A DNA stretch of 45,079 bases. It comes from Rhodospirillales bacterium (GTDB lineage Bacteria; Pseudomonadota; Alphaproteobacteria; ATCC43930; CGMCC-115725). A program made the position numbers and the translations under genes. The stretch is from NCBI GenBank assembly GCA_019689675.1, contig JADGGZ010000006.1, positions 1 through 45,079 on the forward strand. The letters run 5' to 3'. Below the pieces are notes generated by a model. That model had not been told where the DNA came from. It ran no database searches and was given only the letters and a program-made list of their open reading frames with translations. Positions 5,637 to 44,909 of the stretch are shown here, piece after piece (position 1 is the first letter of the stretch; every line of letters starts with the position of its first letter).

Positions 5637-5643
5637 CCCCCTA

Positions 5644-6624: not shown

Positions 6625-6638
6625 GGCGGTAAGCCGCC
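6625..6638 (+). repeat. Small hairpin just after galE
   Basis: GGCGG-TAAG-CCGCC directly follows the galE stop and would form a 5-bp stem with a 4-base loop. No U-run follows, so it is at best an attenuator or mRNA-stability element between galE and the downstream fusion gene. Confidence 0.3.
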
Positions 6639-6731
6639 CGCATCCTCGGAACAGGGCGCCGCCTCGCGGAATAGAGCCTTTCGAGCCGCCGTTGTGGCCG
6701 CGAAAGGTAAACGGGAGCCCGAGAGTCCAAA

Positions 6732-9314: not shown

Positions 9315-9351
9315 AATCCTCCCCCGTTCGCGGGGAGAGGCGAAAACCGCG

Positions 9352-15051: not shown

Positions 15052-16037
15052 CACGCCACGCTGGAAAGATCGCGGGCCGCCGCCTCGCCCGCTTCGCACG
15101 CGGCCCTGTTCCTGTGGACCGCGCGCACGATCGCCTGCGGCTTCCGGTTCGCGGTGAGGTAAAGGCGGCCGAGATACTCGCCGACCATGCCGAGGATCAT
15201 GAGCTGGACACCCGAGAGCAGCAGCACGGCGGCCATGACCGACGCCCAGCCTTCCGGAGTCTTGTCGAAGAGAGCTTCGATGAGGACCGACAGCACGCCG
15301 ATCACGCCCAGGATGCTGAGGACGAACCCGGTAAGCGTGCTGACGCGCAGCGGCATCACCGAGAAATTGAGGAACATGTTGAGCCAGAGGCGCACGAGCC
15401 GGCGGAACGTGTAGTTGCTGCGCCCCGCGGCGCGCGGCAGATGCTTCACCGCCAGGCGCTCGAGCCGCGTCGTCGTCTGCATCACCAGCCCGTCGATGTA
15501 CGGAAACGGGCCGTCGTACCGCGTCACTTGCTCCACCACGAAGGCGGACAGGAGACGAAAGCTCGAGAGATAGAGGCCGCGCGGCTTGTCGAGGAGCCAG
15601 TCGGCGACCCGGTTCGTGAAGCGGCTGCCGAGATTCCGCCATGCGGCATGCTGCTTTTCGGCATAGTAGGTGTAGACGGCATCGGCGCCGGTCCGCTGCG
15701 CGTGCTCCAGGAGGCGGAGCACCTCCGAGGGCGGGTTCTGCAGATCGTCGTCCATGGTGACGACGTAGTCGCCGCGAGCGTGCCGCAGGCCGGTCATGAC
15801 AGCGTTGTGCTCGCCGAAATTGCGCGCGTGGTCCACGACGGTGAGCGGAACCGCGATCCGCTCGGTGAGCGCCCGACAGACGGCGAGGCTGTCGTCTGGG
15901 CTGCCGTCGACCACCAGCACGATCTCGTGCCCGCCGGGGACCGAGAGCCCGGCGAGCGCCTCGACGAGCTCGCCGACGGTCGCGGCGCCGTTGTAGACCG
16001 GCACCACGATCGAGAGCGTGAACGGACGCTCAGGCAT
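15051..16037 (-). CDS. Polyprenyl-phosphate glycosyltransferase, GT2 (ArnC/GtrB-like)
   Basis: A 328-residue protein. The cytoplasmic GT2 domain has LSIVVPVYNG, VVDGSPDDS and the metal-binding TMDDDLQNPP. Two C-terminal transmembrane helices (about residues 230-300) follow, as in DPM1, ArnC and GtrB enzymes. These load a sugar from a nucleotide donor onto undecaprenyl phosphate at the inner face of the membrane. It overlaps the upstream methyltransferase by 8 bp and the downstream flippase by 1 bp. Together with the GT-C gene this looks like a load-flip-transfer cassette. The sugar is not known. Confidence 0.93.
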   Translation of the reverse strand: MPERPFTLSIVVPVYNGAATVGELVEALAGLSVPGGHEIVLVVDGSPDDSLAVCRALTERIAVPLTVVDHARNFGEHNAVMTGLRHARGDYVVTMDDDLQNPPSEVLRLLEHAQRTGADAVYTYYAEKQHAAWRNLGSRFTNRVADWLLDKPRGLYLSSFRLLSAFVVEQVTRYDGPFPYIDGLVMQTTTRLERLAVKHLPRAAGRSNYTFRRLVRLWLNMFLNFSVMPLRVSTLTGFVLSILGVIGVLSVLIEALFDKTPEGWASVMAAVLLLSGVQLMILGMVGEYLGRLYLTANRKPQAIVRAVHRNRAACEAGEAAARDLSSVA

Positions 16038-29172: not shown

Positions 29173-31287
29173 ATGAAGCAGATCTTCCAGAGCGCACGCT
29201 CGGGCAAGCTCGAGCTTGCCGAGGTGCCCGACCCGCAGGTCCGGCCGGGCCATGTCCTCGTCGCCACGCGGGCCTCGCTCATCTCGGCCGGGACCGAGCG
29301 GATGGTGGTCGATTTCGCGCGCAAGAGCCTCGCCGGCAAGGCGAGGGAGCGGCCGGATCTCGTCAAGAAGGTGCTTGAGAAGGCGCGGCGGGACGGGATC
29401 GCGGCGACGTTCCGCGCGGTCATGGCGCGGCTCGACGAGCCTCTGCCGCTCGGCTATTCGGCCGCGGGCGAGGTGGTCGAGGTGGGCGCCGGCCTCGAAG
29501 GCGTCTTCCGGAAGGGGCAGCGCGTCGCGGTGGCGGGCGCCGGGCTCGCCAATCATGCCGAGCTCAACGTCGTTCCGCGCAATCTCGCCGTTCCGGTGCC
29601 GGACGAGGTTTCGGACGAGGAGGCATGTTTCGCGACGCTGGGTTCGATCGCGCTGCACGCGGTGCGCGGGCTCGGCGTCGGGCTCGGCGACGTGGTCGCG
29701 GTGCTCGGCGTCGGACTGGTCGGCCAGCTCGCGGTGCAGCTCTTGGCGCTCCAGGGCGCGCGCGTGGTCGCGCTCGATTACGATTCCGGGCGGCTGGCGC
29801 TTGCGAAGGCGCATGGTGCAGAGCTCGCCTGGAACCTCGCCGAGCCGGGCGCCGCATCCGCGGTCGCCGCGCTCACCGGCGGAATCGGGTGTGATGCGAT
29901 CCTCGTCGCCGCCGCGACGGAATCGAGCGAGCCGCTCGAGCTGGCGGCCGAGCTCGCCCGCGATCGTGCGCGCGTCGTCATGGTCGGCAAGACCGGGACG
30001 GCCTTTCCTTACGCGGCGTTCATGAGGAAGGAGCTCTCGATCAGCGTTTCGCGTTCCTACGGGCCCGGCCGCTACGACGACGAGTTCGAGACCCGAGGCG
30101 TCAAGTATCCGGTCGGCTTCGTCCGCTGGACCGAAACCGAAAATCTGCGCGAGATCGTGCGGCTCATGACGCGCGGACTCGCGGTCGCGCCGCTCCTGAC
30201 GCACCGCTTCGCCTTCGAGGATGCCGAGCGGGCCTACGAGCTGGTGACGGGCGGCGGCGAGCCGCATCTCGGAGTCGTGCTTCGCTACGAGCCGCGCGCA
30301 CCCGCCGTGCGGCCCTCCTTCCCTGCGCCGCAGGCGGGCGCGCGGGGCTGCGTCGTCGGCGTCATCGGCGCCGGCGCCTTCGCGCGCACCGTGCTCTTGC
30401 CGGAGCTCGCGCGGATGAAGGACGTGACGCTGAGGACCATCGTTACGCAGCGCGGCATGACGGCCGAGCACGCGCGCCGGCAGTTCAGGTTCGAGCGCTG
30501 CGCGACCGAGATCGACGCGGTGCTGGGCGATCCCGCGATCAACGCTGTTCTCGTCGCGACCAGGCATGCGAGCCATGCCGAGCTCGCCGCGCGGGCGCTC
30601 GAGGCCGGCAAGTCCGTCTTCGTCGAGAAGCCGCTCGCGGTCGACGAAGCCGGGATCGAGCGCGTCCAAGCGGCGCGGGAGAAGAGCACGGGCTTCTTCC
30701 TCGTCGGCTTCAATCGCCGCTTCGCGCCGATGGTCGCGAAGGCGCGTGCGCATCTCGCGAAGATGGCCGGGCCGAAATTCCTGCTCTTGCGCGTCAATGC
30801 CGGCGCGCTGCCGTCCGAGAGCTGGATCAACGCCGCCGAGGAGGGCGGCGGACGCATCGTCGGCGAGCTCTGCCATTTCATCGATCTCGCGCGCGCTCTC
30901 GCCGGAAGCCCGATCGTCTCCGTCGATGCCTCGGCGGCGGGGCGCGACGACGTCTCGGTCGCGCTCGGCTTCGCGGACGGCAGCCTTGCGACGATCGCCT
31001 ATACCGCGCTCGGCGACACCGGGTTCAGCAAGGAGCGGTTCGAGGCCTTCGCCGGCGGCAGCGTCGTCACGATCGACAACTTCCTGACGCTCACCATCAC
31101 TGCCGATGGCCGCACGCGGACGGAGAAGGCCGCGCAGGACAAAGGGCATGCTGCCGAGCTCGCCGCTTTCGTGCGGGGCGTCGTCGAGGGGCGCCCCCCG
31201 GTCGCGGAGGCCGAGCTGGTCGAGACGAGCCGCGCCACGCTCGCCGTGCTGACGAGCCTGCGCGAAGAGCGCCGCGTATTGCTCTAG
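29173..31287 (+). CDS. Two-domain oxidoreductase: MDR dehydrogenase fused to Gfo/Idh/MocA
   Basis: A 704-residue fusion. Residues about 1-375 form a medium-chain dehydrogenase/reductase with VAVLGVGLVGQLAVQLL for NAD(P). The catalytic zinc ligands are absent: the CGTD position reads A39-G40-T41-E42 and the GHE position reads G94-Y95-S96. Residues from about 392 are a Gfo/Idh/MocA oxidoreductase with GVIGAGAFA and the EKPL lysine motif near 486. Such bi-domain proteins occur in polysaccharide loci and probably carry out linked redox steps on a nucleotide sugar. It is divergent from the winged-helix regulator with two palindromes between them. Its TAG stop shares the CTAG with the convergent CapD gene. 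Confidence 0.9.
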   Translation: MKQIFQSARSGKLELAEVPDPQVRPGHVLVATRASLISAGTERMVVDFARKSLAGKARERPDLVKKVLEKARRDGIAATFRAVMARLDEPLPLGYSAAGEVVEVGAGLEGVFRKGQRVAVAGAGLANHAELNVVPRNLAVPVPDEVSDEEACFATLGSIALHAVRGLGVGLGDVVAVLGVGLVGQLAVQLLALQGARVVALDYDSGRLALAKAHGAELAWNLAEPGAASAVAALTGGIGCDAILVAAATESSEPLELAAELARDRARVVMVGKTGTAFPYAAFMRKELSISVSRSYGPGRYDDEFETRGVKYPVGFVRWTETENLREIVRLMTRGLAVAPLLTHRFAFEDAERAYELVTGGGEPHLGVVLRYEPRAPAVRPSFPAPQAGARGCVVGVIGAGAFARTVLLPELARMKDVTLRTIVTQRGMTAEHARRQFRFERCATEIDAVLGDPAINAVLVATRHASHAELAARALEAGKSVFVEKPLAVDEAGIERVQAAREKSTGFFLVGFNRRFAPMVAKARAHLAKMAGPKFLLLRVNAGALPSESWINAAEEGGGRIVGELCHFIDLARALAGSPIVSVDASAAGRDDVSVALGFADGSLATIAYTALGDTGFSKERFEAFAGGSVVTIDNFLTLTITADGRTRTEKAAQDKGHAAELAAFVRGVVEGRPPVAEAELVETSRATLAVLTSLREERRVLL

Positions 31288-33176
31288 CCCGAGGCGGCCG
31301 TCGGCAGGGAGTCGTAGCGGCGATACTCGGGCACGAGGCGGTGAAGGAGCGCCTCGAGCGCGGCCGCGTCCGCCCTGCGGCAGACATTCGCGAGCTCGTC
31401 GAGAAGGCGCGCGAGGGTGGCAGGGTCGGCGGTCCGCGGCGCTGCGAGAAGAATGCCTTTGCACGCCGTCGGCAGCAGCGGCTCGGCGCCGTGGAAAATC
31501 TCCTCGAAGAGCTTCTCGCCGGGCCTCAGCCCGGTGATCTTGATCTCGATGTCCTCGCCCGGGCGCAATCCCGCGAGGCGGATCATCTGCCGCGCAAGAT
31601 CGATGATGCGGACCGGCTCGCCCATGTCGAGGACGTAGATCTTGCCTGGCTCGTCGCCGGCCATCGCGGTCGCCTGCAGCACGAGCTCGACGGCCTCGCG
31701 CACGGTCATGAAATAGCGCATCACCTCGGGGTGCGTGACGGTGAGCGGGCCGCCCGCGGCGAGCTGGCGCTGGAAGAGCGGTACGACCGACCCGGTGGAG
31801 CCGAGTACGTTGCCGAAGCGGACGGTGACGAAGCGGGTACCCTGGGTCCCGCGATCGAGATCGAGCGCCTGGCACCAGCTCTCGGCGATCCGCTTCGAGG
31901 CTCCCATGATGTTGGTCGGGTTGACCGCCTTGTCGGTGCTGATGAGCACCATGACCGCGACCCCGGCCGCCCGGCAGGCCTCGGCGACGTGCCGCGTTCC
32001 GATCGCGTTCGTTAGGATGCCCTCGAACGGGTTCGCCTCGACCATCGGCACGTGCTTCAAAGCGGCAGCGTGAAAAACGAGCTCGGGTCTCGCTTCGGCG
32101 AAAATGCGGCCGATCGCCGCCCTGTCTCGCACGTCGCCGAGCACGGCCCTGCGCGGCAGGTCGGGGAAGCGCTCCTGAAGCTCGAGATCGATCTGGTAGA
32201 GGTTGAACTCGCCGAAATCGACCAGCGTCACCTCGGCGGGGCCGAACTCGGCCACCTGGCGGACGAGCTCGCCGCCGATCGTGCCCCCTGCGCCGGTCAC
32301 CAGCACGCGCTTGCCTTGGACGAGCCGGCGCATGCCCTCGCGGTCGAGGACGGTCTGCGGTCGGCCCAGCAGGTCCTCGATCGCGACGGGCCGAACCTCG
32401 ATCCGATCCGTCACGCCGGACCGGAGCTCGGTCAGCTTCGGGAGGCGCGCCACCGTCATTCCGACGCGGTCGGCGGCGTCGACGAGGCGCCGCACCGTGG
32501 CGCCGTCGAGATCGTCCAGCGTCAGAATGAGCCGCTGAGGGCGCTTCCCGGCCGCTTCCAAGCGCTCGACGACCTGGGGAAGGTCGTCGAATGTGCCGAG
32601 GACCTCGATCCCGTGAATGTTCCGCCCGACCCGGCCGGCGGTGCCCGCGATCATGCCCACCGGGCTGTACAGAGAATCCTCGCTCCGCGTGGCGCGGATG
32701 AAGAGCTCGGCCGCGTCGCTCGCGCCGGCGAGAAGCACGGGAATGCCGGGACGCGGCGGCGGGCGGAACGAGAACGTGCCGGTGCGGCGGTCCTTGAGGA
32801 TACGGTAGGCGAAGCGGGGGCCGCCGAGGAGAACGAGAAGCACCCCCCACTCGATGATCGGCACCGAGCGCGGCAGGTCTTCGGCGCGGGTCAGAACGAA
32901 CAGGATCGGGACGAAGATGAGCACGACGAGCGTGACCGCCCGGACCAGATTGATCAGGTCGTTGAGCGAGGCGTAGCGCCAGATCCCGCGATAGAGCCGC
33001 AGGGCACGAAACACCACCGCGGCGACAGCGGTGACCAGCAGCGTCCCGTAGATCGTGAGCGTCGGCGAATAGCTCATGACCTCGCCGACCCGCAGCCACA
33101 TCGCGAGCGGGAAGGAGATCGCCGCCATGGCGATGTCATGGAGATAGGCGAGCTGTGCGTGGCGGAAGCGGAGCAT
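31284..33176 (-). CDS. NDP-sugar 4,6-dehydratase, membrane type (CapD/WbpM/FlaA1-like)
   Basis: A 630-residue protein. Four N-terminal membrane helices (about residues 10-120) are followed by a nucleotide-binding-like middle part (IPVLLAGASDAAELF) and a full SDR domain from about 288. The SDR has VTGAGGTIGGEL, the STDK stretch (S413-K416), and NIMGASK with Met424 and K428. Met instead of Tyr is usual in this family, as in WbpM. These enzymes make UDP-4-keto-6-deoxy-N-acetylhexosamine from UDP-GlcNAc. It lies 17 bp downstream of a small SDR that could be the 4-ketoreductase. Product is probably UDP-N-acetylquinovosamine or -fucosamine. The exact sugar is inference. Confidence 0.93.
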   Translation of the reverse strand: MLRFRHAQLAYLHDIAMAAISFPLAMWLRVGEVMSYSPTLTIYGTLLVTAVAAVVFRALRLYRGIWRYASLNDLINLVRAVTLVVLIFVPILFVLTRAEDLPRSVPIIEWGVLLVLLGGPRFAYRILKDRRTGTFSFRPPPRPGIPVLLAGASDAAELFIRATRSEDSLYSPVGMIAGTAGRVGRNIHGIEVLGTFDDLPQVVERLEAAGKRPQRLILTLDDLDGATVRRLVDAADRVGMTVARLPKLTELRSGVTDRIEVRPVAIEDLLGRPQTVLDREGMRRLVQGKRVLVTGAGGTIGGELVRQVAEFGPAEVTLVDFGEFNLYQIDLELQERFPDLPRRAVLGDVRDRAAIGRIFAEARPELVFHAAALKHVPMVEANPFEGILTNAIGTRHVAEACRAAGVAVMVLISTDKAVNPTNIMGASKRIAESWCQALDLDRGTQGTRFVTVRFGNVLGSTGSVVPLFQRQLAAGGPLTVTHPEVMRYFMTVREAVELVLQATAMAGDEPGKIYVLDMGEPVRIIDLARQMIRLAGLRPGEDIEIKITGLRPGEKLFEEIFHGAEPLLPTACKGILLAAPRTADPATLARLLDELANVCRRADAAALEALLHRLVPEYRRYDSLPTAASG

Positions 33177-34170: not shown

Positions 34171-34908
34171 ATGGACTTTGCTCTCTCCAAGCTGCTCTGG
34201 GCGGTCCTCGCCCCGAGCAACCTCCTTCTCCTCCTCCTCGTCCTCGCCCTGGTGCGGCGGCGGCTGGTCTGGTTCGTGGTGCCGGTGCTCGCGATCATCG
34301 CGGTGCTTCCGGTGGCAGCGTTGCTCGCCCTGCCGCTCGAGAACCGATATCCGCAGCCCGCACCCCCCGACAGGGTCGACGGTATCGTCGTCCTCGGCGG
34401 CGGGCTCGACGGCCCCTTGAGCGATGCCCGCGGCCAGCCGGCGCTCACCGAGGCGGCGGAGCGGCTCACCGCCGCCGTCGCTCTCGCGCGCCGCTATCCC
34501 GAGGCGCGGATCGTGTTCTCGGGCGGCGAGGGCACGCTTTTGCCGCAAGGCCATGCCGAGGCGGACGCGAGCGTCGCGTTCTTCACGGCGCTCGGGGTGC
34601 CGCGCGAGCGCCTCATTATCGAGAACAGGTCGCGCAACACCTGGGAGAACGCGCTCTTCGCGCGCGAGGCGGCGCAGCCGAAGTCGGGCGAGACGTGGCT
34701 TCTCGTGACATCGGCATGGCACATGCCGCGGGCGCTCGGCTGCTTTCGTCGCGTCGGCTGGGAGGTGCTGCCGTGGCCGGTCGACTACCGCACGAACCCG
34801 CGCAGGCTGGTTCCCGGCTTCGCGCTGGGCGAAAACCTTGCCGCTCTCGATCTCGTGGCGAAGGAATGGGTGGGCTTGGCGGCCTACTGGGCCATGGGCC
34901 GGATTTGA
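34171..34908 (+). CDS. YdcF/DUF218-family membrane protein
   Basis: A 245-residue protein with two N-terminal membrane helices (about residues 5-55) and then a DUF218 domain. Conserved stretches are GIVVLGGGLDG, ARIVFSGGEG, IENRSRNTWENA and TSAWHMPRALGCF. The domain should face the periplasm. Family members such as SanA, YdcF and ElyC are linked to envelope integrity or peptidoglycan/lipid-carrier metabolism. Its divergent partner is an NDP-sugar SDR. It ends 13 bp before the convergent response-regulator gene. Confidence 0.9.
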   Translation: MDFALSKLLWAVLAPSNLLLLLLVLALVRRRLVWFVVPVLAIIAVLPVAALLALPLENRYPQPAPPDRVDGIVVLGGGLDGPLSDARGQPALTEAAERLTAAVALARRYPEARIVFSGGEGTLLPQGHAEADASVAFFTALGVPRERLIIENRSRNTWENALFAREAAQPKSGETWLLVTSAWHMPRALGCFRRVGWEVLPWPVDYRTNPRRLVPGFALGENLAALDLVAKEWVGLAAYWAMGRI

Positions 34909-34921
34909 GCGCGGTGCGGCC

Positions 34922-35329
34922 TCATGCGCGAGCCGCATAGCTGCCGATGCTCGGGCCGTCATCGAGCGCACGCATCACCACGCTCGCGAGCTCGCTCGGC
35001 CGGTAGGGCTTTTTCAGCATCGGCGCGCGAATCATCTGGCCGGTGATCCGGGAAGTGAAGCCGGCGAACCCGGTCGTGTAGACGATCTTGAGGTCGGGCC
35101 TGATCCGGCGCGCTTCGATCGCCAGACGAAAACCGTCGAGCTCTCCCGGCATCACGATGTCCGTGAACAGAAGATCGACGACGAGCCCGTTCCGGATGAG
35201 GGTCAGCGCGGCGTCGCCGTTCGCGGCGGGGAGGGCGCGATAGCCGGCCTCGTGCAGAATGGCGACCGCCAGCGCCCGGACGTCGTCGTCGTCGTCGACC
35301 ACTAGGACCGAAGCGGCAGGAAGGTTCAT
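34922..35329 (-). CDS. Single-domain response regulator
   Basis: A 135-residue receiver without an output domain. The acidic pocket is in VVDDDDD near residue 12. The phospho-acceptor is D57 (TDIVMPG), the switch Thr is in VYTTGF (T85/T86) and the Lys is in LKKPYRP (K106/K107). It should be phosphorylated by a histidine kinase encoded elsewhere. Single-domain receivers in alphaproteobacteria often act in motility or stress phosphorelays. It lies 43 bp after the end of the glycan operon on the same strand. Whether it is co-transcribed is not clear. Confidence 0.9.
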   Translation of the reverse strand: MNLPAASVLVVDDDDDVRALAVAILHEAGYRALPAANGDAALTLIRNGLVVDLLFTDIVMPGELDGFRLAIEARRIRPDLKIVYTTGFAGFTSRITGQMIRAPMLKKPYRPSELASVVMRALDDGPSIGSYAARA

Positions 35330-35372
35330 GACGCGGTCATTATGGCCCTCGCCGAGCGCGCGGCAATCGGTC

Positions 35373-35702
35373 CTAAAGAACGATGAAATTAACCTCCCAG
35401 GCGGACGCTGCTTCGTCCCAGCCGAAACGGCCCTGCTTCGCGACGGCGTTCATCTGCCGCTCGCGCCACAGCGCATCGTCGCGCAAGAGACGGAGGGCCG
35501 CTTCCGCCAAGGCGGATTCCCCGCGGACGACGAAGCCGGTCGTGCCGTGTTCTACCCGCTCGCGCATGCAGGCGATGTCCTCGACGACGGCGGGTACGCC
35601 CATCGCCCGTGCTTCCGCCGCGGAAATGCAGAACGTCTCCCCTTCGTCGCCACGGTAAAGAAAGACGCGGGCCTGCGACAATTCGCGCGCGAGCTCGACG
35701 TT
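35373..35702 (-). pseudogene. C-terminal remnant of a GT4 glycosyltransferase
   Basis: The frame encodes about 109 residues matching only the last part of GT4 enzymes: ELARELSQARVFLYRGDEGE, then ISAAEARAMGVPAVVED (the E-x7-E region) and a terminal helix. The N-terminal acceptor domain and about 250 residues are missing. Homology begins immediately after the TGA of the upstream glycosyltransferase, as if a deletion joined the two. The best internal start is a TTG at 35681, but a 102-residue product could not be an active transferase. I read it as a decayed gene. It is not closely similar to the intact GT4 at 38965. Confidence 0.7.
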
Positions 35703-35703
35703 A

Positions 35704-36789
35704 TCAGGCGGCCTTGCGCCGCTCCAGCGCCTCGAGCACGTAGCCTTCGAGATCGAGCGCGCGGCGCTCGGACGTGTGCTCGGCGAGGACCCGGGCCCGC
35801 GCGCGCTCGCCGATCCGGCGCCGGATGCGATCGGAGATACCGCGAATGATCGCCGCGCACTCCTCGGAGCTGCGAGCGACCATGATCTCCTCGCTGGGCT
35901 TGAAGATCGTCTCGAGGCCGGGCCAAGGATCGCTGATGATCGGAACGCCGCAGGCCGCGGCTTCGAAGAGCCGCACGGAGGGGCTCCAGCCGGTCCGCAC
36001 CATCGCCGCGCGCGTCACGTTGAGCGTCCAGCGCTGCGCGTTGTAGAAGCCGCGATGCTCGCCCGGCGGAAGATGCTCGATCCGCTCGACGTTGACGGGC
36101 CAGTCGATCCCCTCCGGGTATTGCGGCCCGGCAACTACGAACCTGCCGCGTGGCCAGGAGCGCGCCGGGACGAGGAGCAGCCGTTCGAGCTTCGGCTGAC
36201 GATCCTCGCTGTAGGTTCCCATGTAGCCGAGATCCCAGCGGCGTCGGCCGGGTTCCGGAAAATAGGTTTCAGGATCGACGGAGCAGTAGAGGGCGCGCGC
36301 CGACTTGGCGCGGTGCGCCTGCTCGAGGCGGCGCAGAAGCGGGCCGCCCGTGAACGAGAGATAGAGATCCCAACGTGGAATGAGGTCGGGCGAGAGGTAC
36401 TCGTAGTCGCCCCGCTGCAGCTTGGCGAGCGTCACGGGCGTGTCGATGTCGTAGAAGGCGGTGACGCCGCGCGCCTCTTGAAGGAGCCACTTGCCGACCG
36501 CCACGCCGTCGGGGACGTAGGAGCCGAGAATGACGAGATCGGCGCGGCGGATCTCGCCGGCGTAGCGGTCCTTCAGCTCTTCGAGAGAGCGGTAGAGCCG
36601 CACGCGCCCGAGCTGCGTTGACGCAAGATCGCGGTTCCGGGCGTACCAGGGCACGTCGCGCTCGAGAAAGAGCACGTTGTGGCCGCGTCGCGCGAGCTCG
36701 CGCACGAGGCCGCGATAGGTCGTGGCGTGCCCGTTGCCCCATGACGAGGTGATCGAGAGGCCGAGGAGGACGATCGAGAAGCGTCTCAC
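35704..36789 (-). CDS. CgeB-like glycosyltransferase, copy 1 of 3
   Basis: A 361-residue GT-B protein starting with a GTG that overlaps the upstream stop (GTGA). The N-terminal domain has SSWGNGHATTYRGLVRELAR. The C-terminal donor domain has LYCSVDPETYFPEP, LGYMGTYSEDRQPKL and SVRLFEAAACGVPIISDPW. This is the CgeB/Glyco_trans_1_2 type, first known from Bacillus spore-coat proteins and common in bacterial surface-glycan clusters. It lies in an operon with two close relatives and nucleotide-sugar epimerases. Specific donor and acceptor are unknown. Confidence 0.85.
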   Translation of the reverse strand: MRRFSIVLLGLSITSSWGNGHATTYRGLVRELARRGHNVLFLERDVPWYARNRDLASTQLGRVRLYRSLEELKDRYAGEIRRADLVILGSYVPDGVAVGKWLLQEARGVTAFYDIDTPVTLAKLQRGDYEYLSPDLIPRWDLYLSFTGGPLLRRLEQAHRAKSARALYCSVDPETYFPEPGRRRWDLGYMGTYSEDRQPKLERLLLVPARSWPRGRFVVAGPQYPEGIDWPVNVERIEHLPPGEHRGFYNAQRWTLNVTRAAMVRTGWSPSVRLFEAAACGVPIISDPWPGLETIFKPSEEIMVARSSEECAAIIRGISDRIRRRIGERARARVLAEHTSERRALDLEGYVLEALERRKAA

Positions 36790-37880
36790 GGCGCGGTCTC
36801 GACCCTGGCGCCGAGGATCTTTTCGACGAGCTCGATCCGCTTGCCGTAGGTGTGCTCGGCGATCGCCCGCCGATAGGCGGCACGGCCGATCTCGGTGGCG
36901 CGCTCCGGCGTGAGGCCGAGAAGGATCGATGCGACCTCCTCGCCGTCACGGGCGACGAGGAGTTCCTTGCCCGGTTCGAAGAAGTGCTCGATCCCGGCCC
37001 ATTCGTCGGTGATGACGCATGAACCTGCGCCCGCCGCCTCGAACACCCGGGTCGCAGGGCTCCAGCCGTTGCGCGCCATGCTGTCCCGGCTGATGTTGAG
37101 CACCGCGCGAGGCGTGCAGTTGAAGGCGTTGTGATCGCGCGTGTAGACGTGGCCGAGATGGGTGACGTTCGCCGGCATCGGCTTGTCGTTCCAGCCGTTG
37201 CCGCCGAGGAGGAATCGCTGCGCGGGCATGCGCGAAGCCGGGAAGAAGAAGAACTCCTCGACGCGCGCCTCGCGGTCGGGCAGCCGGTTGGCGAGGAGCG
37301 CGAGGTCGGCCGTGAAGCGCCGATCCGGCGGCACCGGGAAATGGGTCATGGGGTCGAGGCCGTTGTAGATCGGCACGCATTCCCGCGCGCCGAACTCGCG
37401 GTAGGCGCGCACGACCGGGTCGCCGCCGCCGTAGGTGAAGATGAAATCGTAGCGCGGCACCGCCTGGTGGAACGTGTCGTTCGGGTTCTCGCCGAGGCGC
37501 TGGAGCGTCGCCGGTGCGTCGACGTCCCAGAAGACGACGATGTTCCCTGGGCGCTTCAGGTTGGCGACCTCGGCCTCCAGCAGCGCGTCGTGCGCGCCGA
37601 CGCCGCTCGCCTTCACGATCACGTCGGCGTCGGCCGCCTCATCGAGCGCGCGGTAGGCTCCTTCCTCGCCATCGGCCGGATAGACGACGACGCGCGCCCA
37701 CGACGGGTCGGGAATGTCGCGGTGCTTCTGCCGGTCGTAGGCGTCGGGCTCGTAGAAGCTGATCCTGTGCCCGCGCCCGGCGAGCGCGCGCAGGATGCCG
37801 CGGTAGTAGGTCGCCGCCCCGTTCCAGTAGGCCGAGACGAGGCTCGAGCCGAAGAAGGCGATGTTCAGGCCGCTCCGCAT
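36786..37880 (-). CDS. CgeB-like glycosyltransferase, copy 2 of 3
   Basis: A 364-residue paralogue of its neighbours. The N-terminus has SAYWNGAATYYRGILRALAG, equivalent to the WGNGHATTYRGL stretch of copy 1. The donor part has YNGLDPMTHFPVPPDRRF and ATRVFEAAGAGSCVITDEW. It overlaps copy 1 by 4 bp and copy 3 by 16 bp, so all three are translated from one message. Copies 1 and 2 resemble each other most (VFYDxD-type middle segments, GWSPSVRLFEAA versus GWSPATRVFEAA). The substrate is unknown. Confidence 0.85.
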   Translation of the reverse strand: MRSGLNIAFFGSSLVSAYWNGAATYYRGILRALAGRGHRISFYEPDAYDRQKHRDIPDPSWARVVVYPADGEEGAYRALDEAADADVIVKASGVGAHDALLEAEVANLKRPGNIVVFWDVDAPATLQRLGENPNDTFHQAVPRYDFIFTYGGGDPVVRAYREFGARECVPIYNGLDPMTHFPVPPDRRFTADLALLANRLPDREARVEEFFFFPASRMPAQRFLLGGNGWNDKPMPANVTHLGHVYTRDHNAFNCTPRAVLNISRDSMARNGWSPATRVFEAAGAGSCVITDEWAGIEHFFEPGKELLVARDGEEVASILLGLTPERATEIGRAAYRRAIAEHTYGKRIELVEKILGARVETAP

Positions 37881-38965
37881 GCGGGATGTCCCATTTCCTC
37901 GATGATGCCGATGAGTTCGTCGATGCGATGGGCGCAGGTGTGGCGCGCCAGAATGCGCGCGAGCCCCGACGCAGCGAGCGCGTCGGCGCGCGCCCGATCG
38001 TTCAGCAGAAGCCGCAGATGCCGCTCCGTCTCCGCGCCGTCGCGCGCCAGAAGATAGTCCTCGTTCGGACGGAAAAGACCTTCGGCATCCTCCCAAGGCG
38101 CCGAGACGAGCGGCGTTCCGCAGGCGAGCGCCTCGAAGACGCGGATCGTCGGAATGCCGGGAAGCGCTCGAGTGTAGGGACCGCGGGGCACGTGAATCGT
38201 CACGCGGTGCCGCGCGAGAACCTGCGGGACGCGATGGTTGGGAAGATAGCCGCGGAACGAAAGGCCGGCCGCCGCAACGGCTCGGAGCGCCTCCGGCGGG
38301 TATCGCACGCCATGCACGCCGGTGCACAGGCCGAGCCGGCGCACCGGACCGAGAAGATACTCCTCGAGCTCCTTCGTGCGCTCGTCGTCTCCCCAGTTGC
38401 CGATCCAGACGAGATCGCCCTTGTTCTCGGCGTCGAGCGGGTGAAAGACCGAGACGTCGGCGGCCTCGTGCCAGGTCCAGGCGCGGTAGCCCTTCTTCTC
38501 GTAGATCCGGCGCAGCACCTCGCCGAAAGCGAGGATCCCGTCGAACCCGGAGAGGTCGAAGCGCGCCATCTCGTGCGGCGCGGTGACGGCACGATGGTGC
38601 GTGTCGAGGAAGAGGAGCCGGTACCCGCCGTGCGTCTTTCGATGTCTCGACAGACGCGCGATGAGCGCCGGATCGGACCATTCGTGCGCGATGACGAGAT
38701 CGCCGCCGTCGAGCGCCCGGTCGAGATCGAACGCCGCGAGATCGTAGGTCTCGCTCGCGAGGTCGGGATAGGCTTCGCGCCACGTCTCGGCGGCGGCTTC
38801 GCCCTCCGAGAGGAGGAGGTTTTCGAGGCTCCAGGGCCTTGCCGGCTCCAGGGCCCGGACCGAATGGCCGCGCCGCTGCAGCTCGCGGCAAATGCCGCGC
38901 AGGAAATGCGCGTTTCCGTGATTCCAGTCGGAACGCAGCGAGTGGCAGAAGAGGACGAAGCGCAT
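37865..38965 (-). CDS. CgeB-like glycosyltransferase, copy 3 of 3 (divergent)
   Basis: A 366-residue GT-B protein. The N-terminus SDWNHGNAHFLRGICRELQR aligns with copies 1 and 2. The C-terminal domain has LVWIGNWGDDERTKELEEYL and TIRVFEALACGTPLVSAPW. Its middle region differs from the other two, so it may use another acceptor. It starts at the ATG that shares its A with the upstream GT4 stop (TGATG). Confidence 0.85.
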   Translation of the reverse strand: MRFVLFCHSLRSDWNHGNAHFLRGICRELQRRGHSVRALEPARPWSLENLLLSEGEAAAETWREAYPDLASETYDLAAFDLDRALDGGDLVIAHEWSDPALIARLSRHRKTHGGYRLLFLDTHHRAVTAPHEMARFDLSGFDGILAFGEVLRRIYEKKGYRAWTWHEAADVSVFHPLDAENKGDLVWIGNWGDDERTKELEEYLLGPVRRLGLCTGVHGVRYPPEALRAVAAAGLSFRGYLPNHRVPQVLARHRVTIHVPRGPYTRALPGIPTIRVFEALACGTPLVSAPWEDAEGLFRPNEDYLLARDGAETERHLRLLLNDRARADALAASGLARILARHTCAHRIDELIGIIEEMGHPACGAA

Positions 38966-39975
38966 CAGGCGGCCATCTCCCGCGCTGCGGCGGACGTGAG
39001 GCGCGTGTAAGCGTCGCGATAGGCGGCGGCCGTGAGCGCGATCGGGAATTCTTGTGCGCGTCGGCGCGCGCGCTCCGAGTACTCGACGCGCATCTCCCGA
39101 TCGGCGATGAGCCTCGGAAGGCAGTCGAGCCCGAAAAGCGCGGCTCCCTCCCAGTTCTCGCGGAGGCTCGGAATGTCGCCGAGGACGAGTGCGCAGCCCG
39201 ACGCTGCCGCCTCGAGCACGGATAGCCCGAACGGCTCATAGCGCGCCGGAAAGGCGTAGATCGCCGCGCGCGCCATGAGAGCCGCGACCTCGTTCGCCGG
39301 CAGCCGGTCGAGCGCTTCGGCGTGCGCGAAGGCGATCCCTCCCGTCTCGCCCGCGATGAGCACCGGCCAGCCCCACTTCCGATCGAGGGCGCGAAGATTC
39401 TTCGCCTCGTCCCAGATCCGCCCCGCCGCGAAGACGAAGTCCTCCTTCGGCGCCGGACGGAAATCGTCGAGCGCGATGCCGTTCGGAATGATGCGCGCCG
39501 CGCGCGGAGCGCCGTAGTGCCGTGCGGCCGCTTCCATCATCGAGGCGCTCGGCGCCACCACGAGGTCGGCGGCGGCGAGTCCTCTCGCGACCGCCTGCCG
39601 GTATCGCGCCCAGGCGGCCGGCGCGCTCTCGCCGCGCACCGCCTCCCACCAGGAGAGGACGCAGGAATGCGCGACCACGAGAACCGGCGCCCGCCACGGC
39701 AGCGATGCGTGAACGTAGCCGTTGAGATGGACGACATCGGGGCGAAGCTCGGCCTCGAGGGCGAGGAGCCACTTTGCGGCCTCGTCGAGCTCGTCCCAGG
39801 AATCGTCCATCCATTCGAGCTTGAAAGGAGCGTGGACGACGCGCGCGTTCGAATCCGGCGGCTTCGGACCCATGACGGCGAGCGTGAAGTCGATGTCAGG
39901 GAGCGCCCGGACGAGGGCGTTGGCATAGGTCCAGACGCCGCCGACGCCGTCCGCGGTCATCAGAACGCGTTTCAT
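38965..39975 (-). CDS. Glycosyltransferase family 4
   Basis: A 336-residue GT-B enzyme. The N-terminus VLMTADGVGGVWTYANALVR has the glycine-rich acceptor loop. PNGIALDDFRP and RYEPFGLSVLEAAASGCALV mark the donor domain and E-x7-E motif. It overlaps the radical SAM gene by 4 bp (ATGA) and the next transferase by 1 bp. It is one of four intact transferases in this operon, which would suffice to build a repeat or side chain of several sugars. Confidence 0.92.
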   Translation of the reverse strand: MKRVLMTADGVGGVWTYANALVRALPDIDFTLAVMGPKPPDSNARVVHAPFKLEWMDDSWDELDEAAKWLLALEAELRPDVVHLNGYVHASLPWRAPVLVVAHSCVLSWWEAVRGESAPAAWARYRQAVARGLAAADLVVAPSASMMEAAARHYGAPRAARIIPNGIALDDFRPAPKEDFVFAAGRIWDEAKNLRALDRKWGWPVLIAGETGGIAFAHAEALDRLPANEVAALMARAAIYAFPARYEPFGLSVLEAAASGCALVLGDIPSLRENWEGAALFGLDCLPRLIADREMRVEYSERARRRAQEFPIALTAAAYRDAYTRLTSAAAREMAA

Positions 39976-41270
39976 TCGGCCGCCGCCCGCTCGAGCTCGT
40001 GCAGCGGGCGCGGGCGCTGCTCCTGGATGTCGCTGAACCGCTCGAAGAGGCGGAGATAGTGCTCGTGCGCGCGTTCCCAGGCGTCGTCGTCCGGAAGACC
40101 CCAGAGAAGCCGATAGTCCGGCGAGCCCGGATAGGGGAAGAGAGGGACCGGCTCGTTGGCCCAGACGCCGTGGCGCTGCAACCGGTCGCGCCAGGCCGCG
40201 ATCTCGTCGGGGTCGTCGAGATCCGGCGAGGCGATGAGATTCGCCTGGACGAAGGCGACATGGCGCTTGGCGAAGACGAGCCGTTCCGTGAGATCCTCGG
40301 TGGCGATCCGGCAATCCTTGTCGAGGCGCTCGCGCCCTTCTGCGGAAAGGCTTTCCACGCCGGCCTCGATCGAGACGCAGCCGGCGCGGCCGAGCAGCTC
40401 CAGCATGTCGGGCTTCCAGAGGTCGATCCGGGTCTGGATGCCGAACTTCACCGGACGGTCGGCGAGCGCGGCGAGCAGCGGCCGGTTCGGGAGGAAGATC
40501 TCGTCGATGAAGTAGACGTACTCGACGCCTTGCGCGAGGAGCCGGTCGAGCTCGGCGAGAACCGAAGCGAGGGGCCGCCGCCGGTACCGGTCGCGGAAAT
40601 TCTCCTTGGCGCAGAAGGTGCAGCTGTAGGGACACCCGCGCGAGGTCTCGATCTCGGCGCCAGCGGCGGCAGGCTCGGCGTCGAAGCGATGATGATGGTG
40701 AAGATGCCGGCGGACGAGCGCCTCCTCCCAGAGGAGCGTGGGAAGCCTCTCGAGATCGCTTGCGTGAGGGCCGCCCTGGACGACGATCTCGCTGTCCCTG
40801 CGATAGGCGATCGAGAATATGCCGCCCCACGCCTCGCGCGGCGTTGCTGCGAGACGCACCAGGGTTTCCTCCGCCTCCCCCATTACCGCGACGTCTACTC
40901 CGAGCTTCCGCAAGGTCGCTCTCGGCGTCGTCGAGGCATGGGGACCGATCGCCACCCTCGAGCCCGGGATGCCGTCGAGTTCGGCGAGCGTCTCCTGGGC
41001 GACGCGCAGCTCCGGCGGCGCGCAGCGCCAGAAGAGGTAGCTGGGCGCCGTCGTGATCACCGTCATCTCGGGTTCGAACGCGGCGACCGCCGCGCGCAGC
41101 TCCGAGCGGCCGAGACCGGCGAGATGCGCGTCGAAGAGCGCGACCTCGTGGCCCGCTTCGCCGAGCATCTGCCGCGCGTAGCCGTATTCGAGGGGGAGAT
41201 GCGGCTCGCGGCAGCCAAAGTAGATCGAGCCGTCGAAGCTCCAGGGCGGGTTGACGAGCGCGATCCTCAT
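39972..41270 (-). CDS. B12-binding radical SAM enzyme in a glycan operon
   Basis: A 432-residue class B-type radical SAM protein. The N-terminal cobalamin-binding domain has DxHxxG at D47-A-H49-L-A-G52. The radical SAM cluster motif CxxxCxxC is C213, C217 and C220, and the rest of the barrel is present (YFIDEIFLPN, SIEAGVESLS). Enzymes of this type perform C-methylation, ring rearrangement or other radical steps. Relatives beside NDP-sugar epimerases and glycosyltransferases exist (from memory), with no settled activity. Here it overlaps an epimerase and a GT4 by 4 bp each. It probably modifies the sugar nucleotide or the growing glycan. The reaction is unknown. Confidence 0.9.
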   Translation of the reverse strand: MRIALVNPPWSFDGSIYFGCREPHLPLEYGYARQMLGEAGHEVALFDAHLAGLGRSELRAAVAAFEPEMTVITTAPSYLFWRCAPPELRVAQETLAELDGIPGSRVAIGPHASTTPRATLRKLGVDVAVMGEAEETLVRLAATPREAWGGIFSIAYRRDSEIVVQGGPHASDLERLPTLLWEEALVRRHLHHHHRFDAEPAAAGAEIETSRGCPYSCTFCAKENFRDRYRRRPLASVLAELDRLLAQGVEYVYFIDEIFLPNRPLLAALADRPVKFGIQTRIDLWKPDMLELLGRAGCVSIEAGVESLSAEGRERLDKDCRIATEDLTERLVFAKRHVAFVQANLIASPDLDDPDEIAAWRDRLQRHGVWANEPVPLFPYPGSPDYRLLWGLPDDDAWERAHEHYLRLFERFSDIQEQRPRPLHELERAAAE

Positions 41271-42325
41271 CGCGCCGCGACCCGTTCGGCGATGGCACGT
41301 CGGGCGCGGAGCGGGGTCCGGTTCGCGGCGAGCCAAGCCCAGAGGCGCTCGAGGCCTTGCCCGATGGGGATGCGCGGGCGCCAGCCGGTGGCGCGCGTGA
41401 ACGCGCCGTGATCGGAGACGTAGAAGCGTTGGTCGCCGATCCGCCAGCCACCCCATTCGAGGCGGGGAGTGCCGCCGGCGAGGTCGCCGATGAGCTCGAT
41501 CAGCTCGAGAAGGCTGATCGCGTTTCCGGGGCCGCCGCCGATGTTGAAGGCGCGGCCGGAGAGCTCCGGATGCCGTTCGGCCGCGAGGAGCGCGTCGACG
41601 AGATCCTCGACGAAGAGGATGTCGCGCACCTGCCGGCCGTCGCCGTAGAGCGTGATGGGCTTGCCTTCCATCGCACGGATGAGGAAGTGCGCGACCCAGC
41701 CCTGGTCCTCGGTGCCGAACTGATGCGGCCCGTAGATGCAGCTCATGCGGAAGACCGTCGCGCGAAGGCCGTAGCTGCGCGCGTAATCGAGGACGTACTG
41801 GTCGGCGGTTCCCTTCGAGCAGCCGTAGGGGCTGTGGAAGTCGAGCGCGCGACCCTCGTCGATGCCTTTGTCGTGCGGTACGGCGGCGAGATAACGGAGC
41901 GTGTCGGGGTGAAGTCCGACGTTCTCTAGCGCCCCATACACCTTGTTGGTCGAGGTGAAGAGAACGGGAGGGAGGTGCGCGGTGTTGCGGATGGCCTCGA
42001 GCAGAGTGAGCGTCCCGAGCGCGTTTACCGAGAAATCCTCGACCGGGTTCGCGAGGCTCGTGGTGACCGCGACCTGGGCGGCGAAATGGTAGATCCGCGC
42101 CGCGCGGCAGACCGCGGCGCGCAGTCGCTCGCCGTCGCGAATGTCGGCGCGCTCGCACTCGATCCGGTCGCCATAAGCGGCGCGCAGCCAGGCGAGGTTC
42201 TTCTCGACGCCCGGCCGCGAGAGATTGTCGTAGACGAGGACCCGCCGGCCGCTCGCAGCCAGCCGGGCGACGAGATTGGTACCGATGAAGCCGGCGCCGC
42301 CCGTGACGAGGGTGAGCCCGGTCAT
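41267..42325 (-). CDS. NDP-sugar epimerase, CDP-paratose 2-epimerase (RfbE)-like
   Basis: A 352-residue extended SDR. It has GGAGFIGTNL, the STNKVYG stretch and LDFHSPYGCSKG with the YxxxK pair. These latter segments, plus TTSLANPVEDF and DQGWVAHF, agree closely with CDP-tyvelose/CDP-paratose 2-epimerase RfbE as I recall it. The enzyme inverts C2 of CDP-3,6-dideoxyglucose in O-antigen biosynthesis. No CDP-glucose pathway genes are in the window, so the natural substrate may be another NDP-sugar. It overlaps the radical SAM gene by 4 bp (ATGA). Confidence 0.88.
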   Translation of the reverse strand: MTGLTLVTGGAGFIGTNLVARLAASGRRVLVYDNLSRPGVEKNLAWLRAAYGDRIECERADIRDGERLRAAVCRAARIYHFAAQVAVTTSLANPVEDFSVNALGTLTLLEAIRNTAHLPPVLFTSTNKVYGALENVGLHPDTLRYLAAVPHDKGIDEGRALDFHSPYGCSKGTADQYVLDYARSYGLRATVFRMSCIYGPHQFGTEDQGWVAHFLIRAMEGKPITLYGDGRQVRDILFVEDLVDALLAAERHPELSGRAFNIGGGPGNAISLLELIELIGDLAGGTPRLEWGGWRIGDQRFYVSDHGAFTRATGWRPRIPIGQGLERLWAWLAANRTPLRARRAIAERVAAR

Positions 42326-43437
42326 ACCGTGAGGCCCCGGCGCTCCAGCGCGCGCCGCATCTCGGCGATGCGGTCCTTCGCGATCTGGCCCTCGAGCCAG
42401 CCTGCGAGCTCGAGGATGCCGCCTTCGAGGTCGACGCGGGGACGATAGCCGAGAACCTGCTTCGCCCGCGCGCTATCGGCGAAGCAGTGGCGTATGTCGC
42501 CGACGCGGTACTTGCCGGTGATCTCGGGCTCGATGTTCTTGCCAAGCTGCTCGGCGAGCTTCAGGGCGATCTCGTTGACGGTGCGCGGAGTCCCCGAGCC
42601 GATGTTGAAGACCTGCCCGGCGGCGGACGCGGTCTCGTACGCAAGACGGCAGCCCTCGGCGACGTCGTGTACCGAGACGAAATCGCGCTTCTGCTCGCCG
42701 TCCTCGAAGATGAGCGGCGGCTTGTCGTTGAGAAGCCGTGCGGCGAAGATCGCCAGCACTCCGGTATAGGGGTTGGAGAGCGCCTGGCGCGGGCCGTAGG
42801 TGTTGAAGAACCGGAGCGCCACGGTCGGGATGCCGTAGGCGGCGCCGGCGACGAGGCACATTCTCTCCTGATCGTATTTCGAGAGCGCGTAAACGGAGGC
42901 GAGCGCAGGCGGCTTCGTCTCGGGCGTCGCGACGGGCACGAGCCGCTCGCGCTTTCCGTTCTTCGGCTCCCACGATCCGCGCCGGAGCTGATCGAGGCTG
43001 CGATCGGCGCACGTGACGAGACGCCCGTTCGCCGTCTTGTAGAGACCCTCGCCGTAAACGCTCATGCTCGAGGCGACGACCAGCCGCTCGACCGGACGTT
43101 CGATGAGCGCCTCCAGAAGAACGGCGGTGCCGAGATTGTTGACAGCGGTGTACTGGGCAAGCTCGTACATGCTCTGCCCGACGCCGACCATGGCGGCGAA
43201 GTGGAACACGCCATCGACGCCGCGGAGGGCCTCGCGCACGGCGTCGGGATCTCGCACGTCGCCCTCGATCAACTCGACCTCGGGATCGAGGTAGCGCGGC
43301 CTTCTCGCGCCGGCGCCGTGCACCTGGGGCGATAGATTGTCGAGAGCGCGGACCCTGTAGCCGCGGCGGAGCAGATTGTCGGCGAGATGCGAACCGATGA
43401 AGCCCGCTCCGCCGGTGATCAGAATCCGACCCGCCAC
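42322..43437 (-). CDS. NDP-sugar epimerase, dTDP-L-rhamnose 4-epimerase-like
   Basis: A 371-residue extended SDR and first gene of the operon, starting at a GTG with GAGAGGGG just upstream. It has GGAGFIGSHL, MVGVGQSMYELAQYTAVNN, SSMSVYGEGLY and SVYALSKYDQE with the YxxxK pair. These match dTDP-L-rhamnose 4-epimerases (WbiB-like, from memory), which make dTDP-6-deoxy-L-talose. It overlaps the next epimerase by 4 bp (ATGA). A different hexose substrate is possible. Confidence 0.88.
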   Translation of the reverse strand: MAGRILITGGAGFIGSHLADNLLRRGYRVRALDNLSPQVHGAGARRPRYLDPEVELIEGDVRDPDAVREALRGVDGVFHFAAMVGVGQSMYELAQYTAVNNLGTAVLLEALIERPVERLVVASSMSVYGEGLYKTANGRLVTCADRSLDQLRRGSWEPKNGKRERLVPVATPETKPPALASVYALSKYDQERMCLVAGAAYGIPTVALRFFNTYGPRQALSNPYTGVLAIFAARLLNDKPPLIFEDGEQKRDFVSVHDVAEGCRLAYETASAAGQVFNIGSGTPRTVNEIALKLAEQLGKNIEPEITGKYRVGDIRHCFADSARAKQVLGYRPRVDLEGGILELAGWLEGQIAKDRIAEMRRALERRGLTV

Positions 43438-43604
43438 TAGCCCCTCTCACCGCCCTTGCTCGCGAAAAAGATGCGCGACCGCCTGCCTGCGGAAACAGGG
43501 CGGGGGTGGGTAAGTTCCTTTATTGCGGTCCCCGGCAAGCGACGCTGCGGTCGCCCTGCCTTTCGCGCGAGCCGGCGAGCTCCAGTTCGCCGCCGCGTCC
43601 TCGA
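43438..43604 (-). promoter_or_regulatory. Region upstream of the glycan operon
   Basis: This 167-bp gap is the only space where the operon from 43437 downward could have its own promoter. It includes the A+T-rich AATAAAGGAACTTA (coding strand, near 43510-43530) preceded by TTGCCG, but the spacing to a -10 box is poor. No terminator for rarA stands out, so read-through is possible. Confidence 0.3.
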
Positions 43605-44909
43605 TTATTCGCGATCGCGTTTGGCGGCGCGGAGCTTCGCCCAGTAGTCGAGCCGCTTGCGAATCTCGCGTTCGAAGCCTCGTTCGGCGGGATCGTAGAA
43701 GCGCGGCCGCTCCATTCCGTCGGGAAAGTAGTTCTGGCCGGAGAAGCCCTCTTCGGTGTCGTGGTCGTAGGCGTACCCCTTGCCGTAGCCGAGCTCGCGC
43801 ATGAGCCGCGTCGGCGCGTTGAGGATGTGCTTCGGCGGCATCAACGAGCCGGTTTCGCGCGCGGCGCGGCGCGCCGCTCCGAACGCGGTATAGACCGCGT
43901 TCGACTTCGGCGCGGTCGCGAGGAAGATGACGAGCTGCGCGAGGGCGAGCTCGCCCTCGGGCGAGCCGAGCCGGTCGTAGGTCTCCCACGCGGCGATCGC
44001 ATGCTGCAGGGCCGCCGGCTCGGCAAGGCCTATGTCTTCGACGGCGGCGCGCGTCATGCGGCGCAGGATGTAGATCGGATCCTCCCCGCCCTCGAGCATG
44101 CGGGCGAGCCAATAGAGCGCCGCGTCCGCATCCGAGCCGCGCACCGATTTGTGCAAGGCGCTGATGAGATTGTAGTGGCCCTCCTGCGCCTTGTCGTAGA
44201 GAGGCGCCCGGCGCTGCACGGTTTTCGCGAGTTCGGCTGCTCCGAGCGTTTTCTCGGCGGGAAGCAGCGCCAGCTCCTCCACGAGATTGAGGAGGAAGCG
44301 CCCGTCCCCGTCCGCCATCGCCTTCAGCGCCTGACGCGCCTCGGAGTCGAGCGGCAGCTTCCGGCCGAGCTCGGCCTCGGCGCGCGCGAGAAGCTGCTCG
44401 AGCGCGGCATCGTCGAGCCGGTGCAGCACGAACACTTGAGCGCGCGAGAGAAGCGCACCGTTCAACTCGAACGACGGATTTTCCGTCGTCGCTCCGACGA
44501 GGATGATCGTTCCGTCTTCGACATAGGGCAGGAACGCGTCTTGCTGCGTCCGGTTGAAGCGGTGGATCTCGTCGACGAAGAGGAGCGTGCCGCGTCCTAC
44601 TGCGCGACGCTGCTTGGCGGCATCGAAGACTTTGCGCAGATCGGCGACGCCGGAGAAGACCGCCGACAGCGGCTCGAAGTGGAGATCGGTATGCTCGGCC
44701 AGAAGGCGGGCGATCGTCGTCTTGCCGCAACCGGGCGGACCCCAGAGGATCATCGAGGCGAGCCTGCGCGAGGCGACCATCCGCCCGATCGGCGCATCCG
44801 GCGCAAGAAGATGGTCCTGCCCGATCACCTCCGAGAGCCGCTTCGGCCGCAGCCGATCGGCGAGCGGCCGCGGCGCCAGCGTTTCGAACAGCTCGGGGCC
44901 GCGCGCCAC
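43605..44909 (-). CDS. rarA: Replication-associated recombination protein RarA (MgsA) AAA ATPase
   Basis: A 434-residue AAA+ ATPase of the RarA/Mgs1/WRNIP1 family. Walker A is GPPGCGKTT (57-65) and Walker B is FVDEIHRF with D113-E114. The C-terminal tetramerisation part ends in KRLDYWAKLRAAK. It acts at stalled replication forks in the cytoplasm. It starts at a GTG five bases after the stop of the DegP-type gene, so the two are probably co-transcribed. The pairing with a DegP-like protease is common in alphaproteobacteria (from memory). Confidence 0.95.
   Translation of the reverse strand: MARGPELFETLAPRPLADRLRPKRLSEVIGQDHLLAPDAPIGRMVASRRLASMILWGPPGCGKTTIARLLAEHTDLHFEPLSAVFSGVADLRKVFDAAKQRRAVGRGTLLFVDEIHRFNRTQQDAFLPYVEDGTIILVGATTENPSFELNGALLSRAQVFVLHRLDDAALEQLLARAEAELGRKLPLDSEARQALKAMADGDGRFLLNLVEELALLPAEKTLGAAELAKTVQRRAPLYDKAQEGHYNLISALHKSVRGSDADAALYWLARMLEGGEDPIYILRRMTRAAVEDIGLAEPAALQHAIAAWETYDRLGSPEGELALAQLVIFLATAPKSNAVYTAFGAARRAARETGSLMPPKHILNAPTRLMRELGYGKGYAYDHDTEEGFSGQNYFPDGMERPRFYDPAERGFEREIRKRLDYWAKLRAAKRDRE

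Follow-up and report, generated by a model that had tools for sequence, protein, structure and literature searches.

A conserved gene system around a B12-type radical SAM enzyme in a Rhodospirillales bacterium and its possible oligosaccharide product

Contig JADGGZ010000006.1 of a Rhodospirillales bacterium (GenBank assembly GCA_019689675.1) carries a minus-strand operon of seven genes in the stretch of 45,079 nucleotides analyzed here (positions 1 to 45,079, called the window). Two of the genes (epiA and epiB) encode short-chain dehydrogenase/reductase (SDR) enzymes, one encodes a B12-binding-domain radical S-adenosylmethionine (SAM) protein of family TIGR04295, and four encode glycosyltransferases (GT1 to GT4). 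Here we found that this operon and further gene modules encoded elsewhere in the same genome almost certainly constitute one conserved system. We propose to read the whole as a stress-promoter-driven cytoplasmic system that makes a small modified oligosaccharide, a reading to which we give just short of an even chance.

Conservation of the operon and its wider gene set

The operon proper lies at 35704-43437 and its open reading frames are all intact. The order is epiA-epiB-radical SAM-GT1-GT2-GT3-GT4, with successive overlaps of 4, 4, 4, 1, 16, and 4 bp, which bears out the initial annotation of this DNA, made from the sequence alone, in describing seven intact genes in a fixed order that overlap by 1-16 bp. 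That annotation set the interval at 34922-43437; the operon is indeed there, but positions 34922-35699, with a response regulator and a glycosyltransferase remnant, are outside it. It also suggested a search for the same gene order in other alphaproteobacteria. Scanning one genome of each species yielded 220 stretches that encode relatives; for the best 80 loci, the flanking DNA was read as well, up to 10 kb in either direction. In these 80 loci the order is kept with few exceptions, and it recurs in Alphaproteobacteria, Acidobacteriota, Cyanobacteria, Myxococcota, Nitrospirota, and one metagenome-assembled genome of the Desulfarculales. The radical SAM gene thus stands in a conserved order and not mostly among unrelated neighbors, and the earlier idea that the locus builds a glycan corresponds to a real, conserved glycan-assembly operon.

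Gene content was counted in 85 loci, which include plasmid copies and the window; some loci are contig fragments, so the counts of the core genes are lower bounds. The core genes are present in at least 80 (epiA), 74 (epiB), 82 (GT1), 79 (GT2), 79 (GT3), and 72 (GT4) of them. Beside this core we found a GH39-like protein annotated as beta-xylosidase (52 of the 85 loci, fused forms included), a TIGR04290 methyltransferase (50), a UDP-glucuronate decarboxylase (UXS; 35), a histidine phosphatase (34), an inositol-3-phosphate synthase (IPS; 28), a fifth glycosyltransferase, with domain PF13524 (GT5; 24), a nucleotidyltransferase (23), and a phosphopentomutase-like protein (10). The full set of 15 genes is carried by each of two plasmids of Bradyrhizobium sp. 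195 (loci L121 and L122), in the order IPS, phosphatase, glycosyltransferase, nucleotidyltransferase, TIGR04290 methyltransferase, 'beta-xylosidase,' phosphopentomutase, epiA through GT4, and UXS. The two plasmids are different and conjugative. A separate observation concerns a conserved protein of about 570 amino acids, lacking a Pfam match, that is encoded near the operon at L085:16800-18515 and in eight other loci; by eye it seems to combine a phosphoribosyltransferase-like and a kinase-like part.

In the genome of the window, the extra genes do not adjoin the operon but are encoded in two separate modules. The second module, GT5-nucleotidyltransferase-TIGR04290-GH39-like, is on contigs C12 and C333; the TIGR04290 gene is split between the end of C12 and the start of C333 and is followed by the GH39-like gene. 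The third module, on contig C21, consists of the genes for IPS (66% identical) and the histidine phosphatase; profile PF07994 gave a false negative for IPS, which was detected with PF01658. UDP-xylose could possibly be supplied by an SDR encoded in the window itself at 3024-4013, as it is 56% identical to the UXS that closes the Bradyrhizobium operon. Convergent to the IPS-phosphatase pair, C21 also carries a GT4-type glycosyltransferase gene and a PIG-L/LmbE-like gene (L180:3265-5156), a pair whose translations, judged by eye, recall mycothiol-type GlcNAc-inositol chemistry.

In a sample of 387 genomes from the class, 13 carry TIGR04295 and 14 carry TIGR04290, and every one of the 13 TIGR04295 carriers has TIGR04290 as well (hypergeometric value of 2e-23, which is not a strict probability since the genomes are related). 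In the window genome and in three others (G335, G169, and G214), the two genes are far apart (450 kb) or on separate contigs. That the two are inherited together although unlinked argues strongly for a single pathway.

Parts of the system had been noticed before, as both marker families are already in NCBIfam, where TIGR04295 (B12_rSAM_oligo) and TIGR04290 (meth_Rta_06860) are each listed as a 'hypothetical equivalog.' The radical SAM protein of the window and the methyltransferase of its genome are clear members, and the model name hints at an oligosaccharide. In the open literature, with most subscription journals outside it, no paper was found that names TIGR04295, TIGR04290, or Rta_06860 or that pairs these genes, nor one that describes the gene system, its regulation, or the GH39 permutation presented below. 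With the present analysis, two families that lacked an assigned function gain a place in one defined system that has a full parts list and a likely regulator. Culturable carriers exist in Azospirillum, Methylobacterium, Bradyrhizobium, and Tistrella, so that the product is open to a direct search. If it is a stress-protective sugar, a widespread compound has been overlooked.

A stress-type promoter motif before the modules

Upstream of epiA in the window is the EcfG-type promoter-like site GGAACTTACCCACCCCCGCCCTGTT, of the form GGAAC-N17-GTT, one of only three GGAAC-N16-18-GTT sites on both strands of the 45 kb. Among the relatives, 25 of 50 alphaproteobacterial loci have this motif within 350 bp before epiA, where first-order shuffles lead one to expect 0.7, and none of 28 loci from other phyla has it there. 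IPS, which opens the second module in the relatives, is preceded by it in 13 of 28 cases (0.27 expected), and there is nearly none before internal genes. As the idea of the motif arose from the first set of loci, those fetched later form a separate check: about 4 of 13 have it before epiA (L160, L165, L173, and L175; P of about 1e-4), and in L166, L170, L175, and L177 it precedes the gene that opens the second module. In the genome of the window, the motif is present before all three modules with the same N17 spacing.

The arrangement resembles that of the EcfG general stress regulon. In Sphingomonas melonis, the published EcfG motif is GGAAC-N17-20-GTT, and Ku and topoisomerase IB are among the targets (PMC6599016). 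The operon of Tistrella has an EcfG-like sigma gene directly before it, and genes of these same two kinds, for Ku and topoisomerase IB, adjoin it. EcfG is described as exclusive to the Alphaproteobacteria (PMC3892343), which fits the lack of the motif in the other phyla. Based on these sequence data, an extracytoplasmic function (ECF) stress-type promoter very probably drives the operon. When the four EcfG-like sigma genes of the window genome were checked for autoregulation, no motif was found at three. The EcfG-like sigma gene on contig C272 (L134) has five GGAAC-N16-18-GTT sites in 3.2 kb, and its product is a candidate for the sigma factor that acts on the operon. By eye, a stress-type SDR gene and an alpha-amylase-family gene are located near it.

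The enzymes and the proposed product

The radical SAM protein matches TIGR04295 with 716 bits (cut-off of 400) over model positions 1-422. Its predicted cobalamin-binding Rossmann domain (PF02310) scores 40 bits against a cut-off of 32. An AlphaFold model (predicted local distance difference test score [pLDDT] of 90.7) was compared with solved enzymes, and the nearest structures include TsrM (Z of 27.7), OxsB (27.5), MgmA (26.9), and AprD4 (26.2), with matches over residues 1-418 and over both domains. CysS and TokK share this full-length fold as well, and the Z values for the six range from 20 to 28. By its modeled fold, the window protein belongs to the full-length B12-type radical SAM proteins. 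In sequence it resembles all solved enzymes weakly, and at 15-21% identity neither the reaction nor the substrate of these B12-type enzymes can be transferred to it. TsrM and MgmA are methylases, OxsB is a ring-contracting enzyme, and AprD4 is a sugar diol dehydratase. Four nearly equal fold matches therefore represent three kinds of reaction, which settles the class of the enzyme but not its chemistry. The initial annotation had expected a branched or C-methylated sugar; such a product does not follow from the B12-type radical SAM fold, which is about equally near to methylases, OxsB, and AprD4. For C-methylation as the step catalyzed, we see about an even chance.

The motifs were examined in an alignment of 56 sequences, in which the relatives share 59-70% identity with the window protein. 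Throughout this alignment, the CxxxCxxC cluster motif is invariant. DxHxxG, which had been pointed out together with CxxxCxxC, is indeed present in the window protein (as DAHLAG), but it is not a feature of the family, as 27 of the 56 sequences have His at position 49 and 26 have Gln. This lower-ligand motif is present in only some B12-dependent radical SAM methylases. We also noticed a near-invariant HHHHRF stretch about 20 residues before CxxxCxxC, inside which H193-H194-R195 is invariant in the 56 sequences.

It is possible, although on balance doubtful, that the TIGR04295 enzyme instead performs a radical rearrangement, an epimerization, or a diol dehydration of a glycoside, with a neighboring SDR reducing the product. 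OxsB and AprD4 are as near in fold as the two methylases, the His of DxHxxG is not conserved, and AprD4 offers a precedent, as it acts on an aminoglycoside sugar with a reductase partner. The retained B12-binding domain, above its cut-off, speaks against such a reaction, and with similarity so weak to all solved enzymes neither chemistry is strongly favored. The rest of the explanation proposed here is compatible with both.

The assignment of epiB as an RfbE-type epimerase holds: it aligns nearly over its full length with CDP-tyvelose 2-epimerase (PDB entries 1orr and 9rl0; 266-268 bits), and the next family scores 140 bits. From this similarity, epiB probably inverts C2 of a nucleoside diphosphate (NDP)-sugar. 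Unlike the setting of RfbE, the operon has no CDP-paratose pathway genes, and in several other genomes epiB carries a fused GH39-like domain. For epiA, the earlier label of dTDP-rhamnose 4-epimerase could not be established. Its best NCBIfam match is GalE, with 148 bits against a cut-off of 262, no equivalog cut-off is passed among the NCBIfam matches shown, and the best PDB matches are varied SDRs. The protein is 61% identical to its Bradyrhizobium counterpart and probably acts at C4 of an NDP-sugar.

The GH39-like protein, whose gene is outside the window, occurs in two forms. One is a stand-alone circular permutant (for example, L132:613-1542); in the other, the unpermuted domain is attached to the N terminus of epiB (for example, L119:11956-14004). 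Some genomes, such as those of L089 and L072, carry both. The stand-alone form starts at the acid/base strand (IWNEPNNKSHWD) and finishes with the segment expected to precede it (TSPP..FAEFCA.M.RRY). Aligned with the epiB-fused N-terminal domain of Tistrella, it gives two swapped blocks of 97 and 61 bits, whereas a doubled copy aligns in a single run of 297 columns with 148 bits. The model of the stand-alone form is a confident barrel (pLDDT of 88.6), and its fold search gave poor whole-barrel matches (template modeling scores mostly of 0.2-0.45), as expected for a circular permutant. The protein resembles GH39 glycosidases and PslG in retaining the WNEPN and SEVG glutamates, with a weak sequence match to PslG and a partial fold match to GH39 beta-xylosidase; the circular permutation sets the stand-alone form apart from them. 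The fusion of the unpermuted form suggests that a glycosidase-like activity is tied to the epimerase step.

No membrane segment was predicted in the 15 proteins of the full set, and no gene for a polymerase, flippase, initiating transferase, exporter or other transporter, or lipid carrier is among the recurring neighbors of the operon. The earlier remark that the operon encodes no polymerase or flippase thus extends to the wider system. Together with the gene content, this makes stepwise assembly of an oligosaccharide in the cytoplasm the simplest reading, and a cytoplasmic oligosaccharide as the product is slightly favored. In alphaproteobacteria, an EcfG-like ECF sigma promoter would turn the system on. 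NDP-sugars would be prepared by the two SDR enzymes, and the UXS-type enzyme, where encoded, would provide UDP-xylose. IPS and the histidine phosphatase could supply myo-inositol or its phosphate as the acceptor in alphaproteobacteria; we consider inositol a tentative candidate for this role, with the chances somewhat against it. Four to five GT-B enzymes would then add sugars one after another, the TIGR04290 enzyme would O-methylate, and the TIGR04295 enzyme would alter one unactivated carbon beyond the reach of ordinary chemistry, most likely by C-methylation. Possibly, the GH39-like enzyme, permuted or not, trims or transfers one residue. The product would be a small oligosaccharide, soluble or peripherally attached, and perhaps protective under stress. 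Gene content and order, co-occurrence, the promoter motif, and the folds are observations, and all of the reactions, the inositol acceptor, the solubility of the product, and its protective role are deduced.

Several results weigh against this proposal or parts of it. IPS adjoins the operon only in alphaproteobacteria (in none of the loci from other phyla), and of the 13 genomes with TIGR04295 in the class sample, it was found in only 6. Inositol therefore does not belong to every version of the system. A single-contig genome of 3.2 Mb (G316, L178) has no TIGR04295 gene and keeps epiA, epiB, GT1, GT2, and the second module with its methyltransferase and GH39-like genes; it is a natural variant without the radical SAM enzyme. 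As to the regulation, the NepR model was not matched in the window genome (it was matched in 27 of 61 genomes in a sample of the relatives), and the four PhyR_sigma2-type matches of the window genome, in frames of 194-211 amino acids, include none of PhyR length. The motif sites of this genome end in TGTT, the usual ending being CGTT, and in half of the alphaproteobacterial loci the 350 bp before epiA lack the motif. The most specific form of the proposal, in which a soluble 8- to 15-gene system present in several phyla and stress controlled in alphaproteobacteria makes a stress-induced, O-methylated oligosaccharide based on myo-inositol with one B12-radical-modified carbon, would amount to a new metabolite class, and we regard it as rather unlikely in all its parts.

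The initial annotation suggested that the locus may decorate another glycan. A branched or C-methylated sugar could be added to a polysaccharide of the cell surface, be it O-antigen, capsule, or exopolysaccharide, that is polymerized and exported by other loci. The window does contain other surface-glycan genes, among them a WbpM/FlaA1-like gene (31284-33167) and genes for GT2-family transferases and an ABC exporter, and CDP-tyvelose 2-epimerase, which epiB matches, is an O-antigen enzyme. The EcfG-dependent genes of S. melonis include those for an exopolysaccharide protein and glycosyltransferases (PMC6599016). However, the conserved neighbor clusters lack the polymerization and export genes named above, all 15 proteins are without membrane segments, and the same set is found in phyla with very different surfaces, whereas O-antigen loci are variable. 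The stress-type motif and the completion of the system by two other loci point to a cytoplasmic, stress-related product over a surface decoration, which we consider unlikely. Attachment of the oligosaccharide to a lipid or protein, giving a glycolipid of the cytoplasmic face or a glycoprotein in stress or dormancy, appears quite improbable. The PF13524 domain in GT2 to GT5 is in its favor, as transferases with this domain resemble CgeB-type spore-glycosylation enzymes, but no gene for a lipid-carrier transferase or an acceptor protein recurs in the loci.

Neighboring genes and a second glycan region

The features of the window are listed in Table 1. The idea that the glycosyltransferase remnant once belonged to the set was rejected because it has no close counterpart in the related loci. 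A degraded, nonfunctional operon was likewise rejected, given seven intact frames and conserved remote modules. Homologues of the response regulator are near only two of the related loci. A DUF218 gene (34171-34908) lies downstream of the operon on the opposite strand, and RarA (43605-44909) is encoded upstream.

Table 1. Coordinates of the operon and other features in the window
Feature	Position	Strand	Description	Basis or remark
EcfG-type promoter-like site	43494-43518	-	GGAAC-N17-GTT	57-81 bp before epiA
epiA	42322-43437	-	NAD-dependent SDR epimerase/dehydratase, GalE/WbpP-like, 371 aa, GTG start	PF01370
epiB	41267-42325	-	CDP-tyvelose 2-epimerase-like SDR, 352 aa	PDB 1orr, 268 bits; 9rl0, 266 bits
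Radical SAM	39972-41270	-	TIGR04295 B12-binding-domain radical SAM protein, 432 aa	PF02310 and PF04055
GT1	38965-39975	-	GT-B glycosyltransferase, GT4-type	PF13439/PF13692; position conserved
GT2	37865-38965	-	Glycosyltransferase	PF13524; position conserved
GT3	36786-37880	-	Glycosyltransferase	PF13524; position conserved
GT4	35704-36789	-	Glycosyltransferase, final operon gene	PF13524; position conserved
Glycosyltransferase remnant	35373-35699	-	C-terminal third of another GT-B enzyme, 108 aa	PF13692
Response regulator	34922-35329	-	Single-domain, unrelated neighbor	PF00072
UDP-glucuronate decarboxylase-like SDR	3024-4013	-	Adjoins UDP-glucose dehydrogenase (4032-5375)	Pfam

A second, separate glycan region is at 2946-16037 of the window. 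It encodes a UDP-glucuronate decarboxylase-like protein, a UDP-glucose dehydrogenase, an NAD-epimerase, an ABC exporter, and two family-2 glycosyltransferases, one of which is fused to a glycosidase-like domain.

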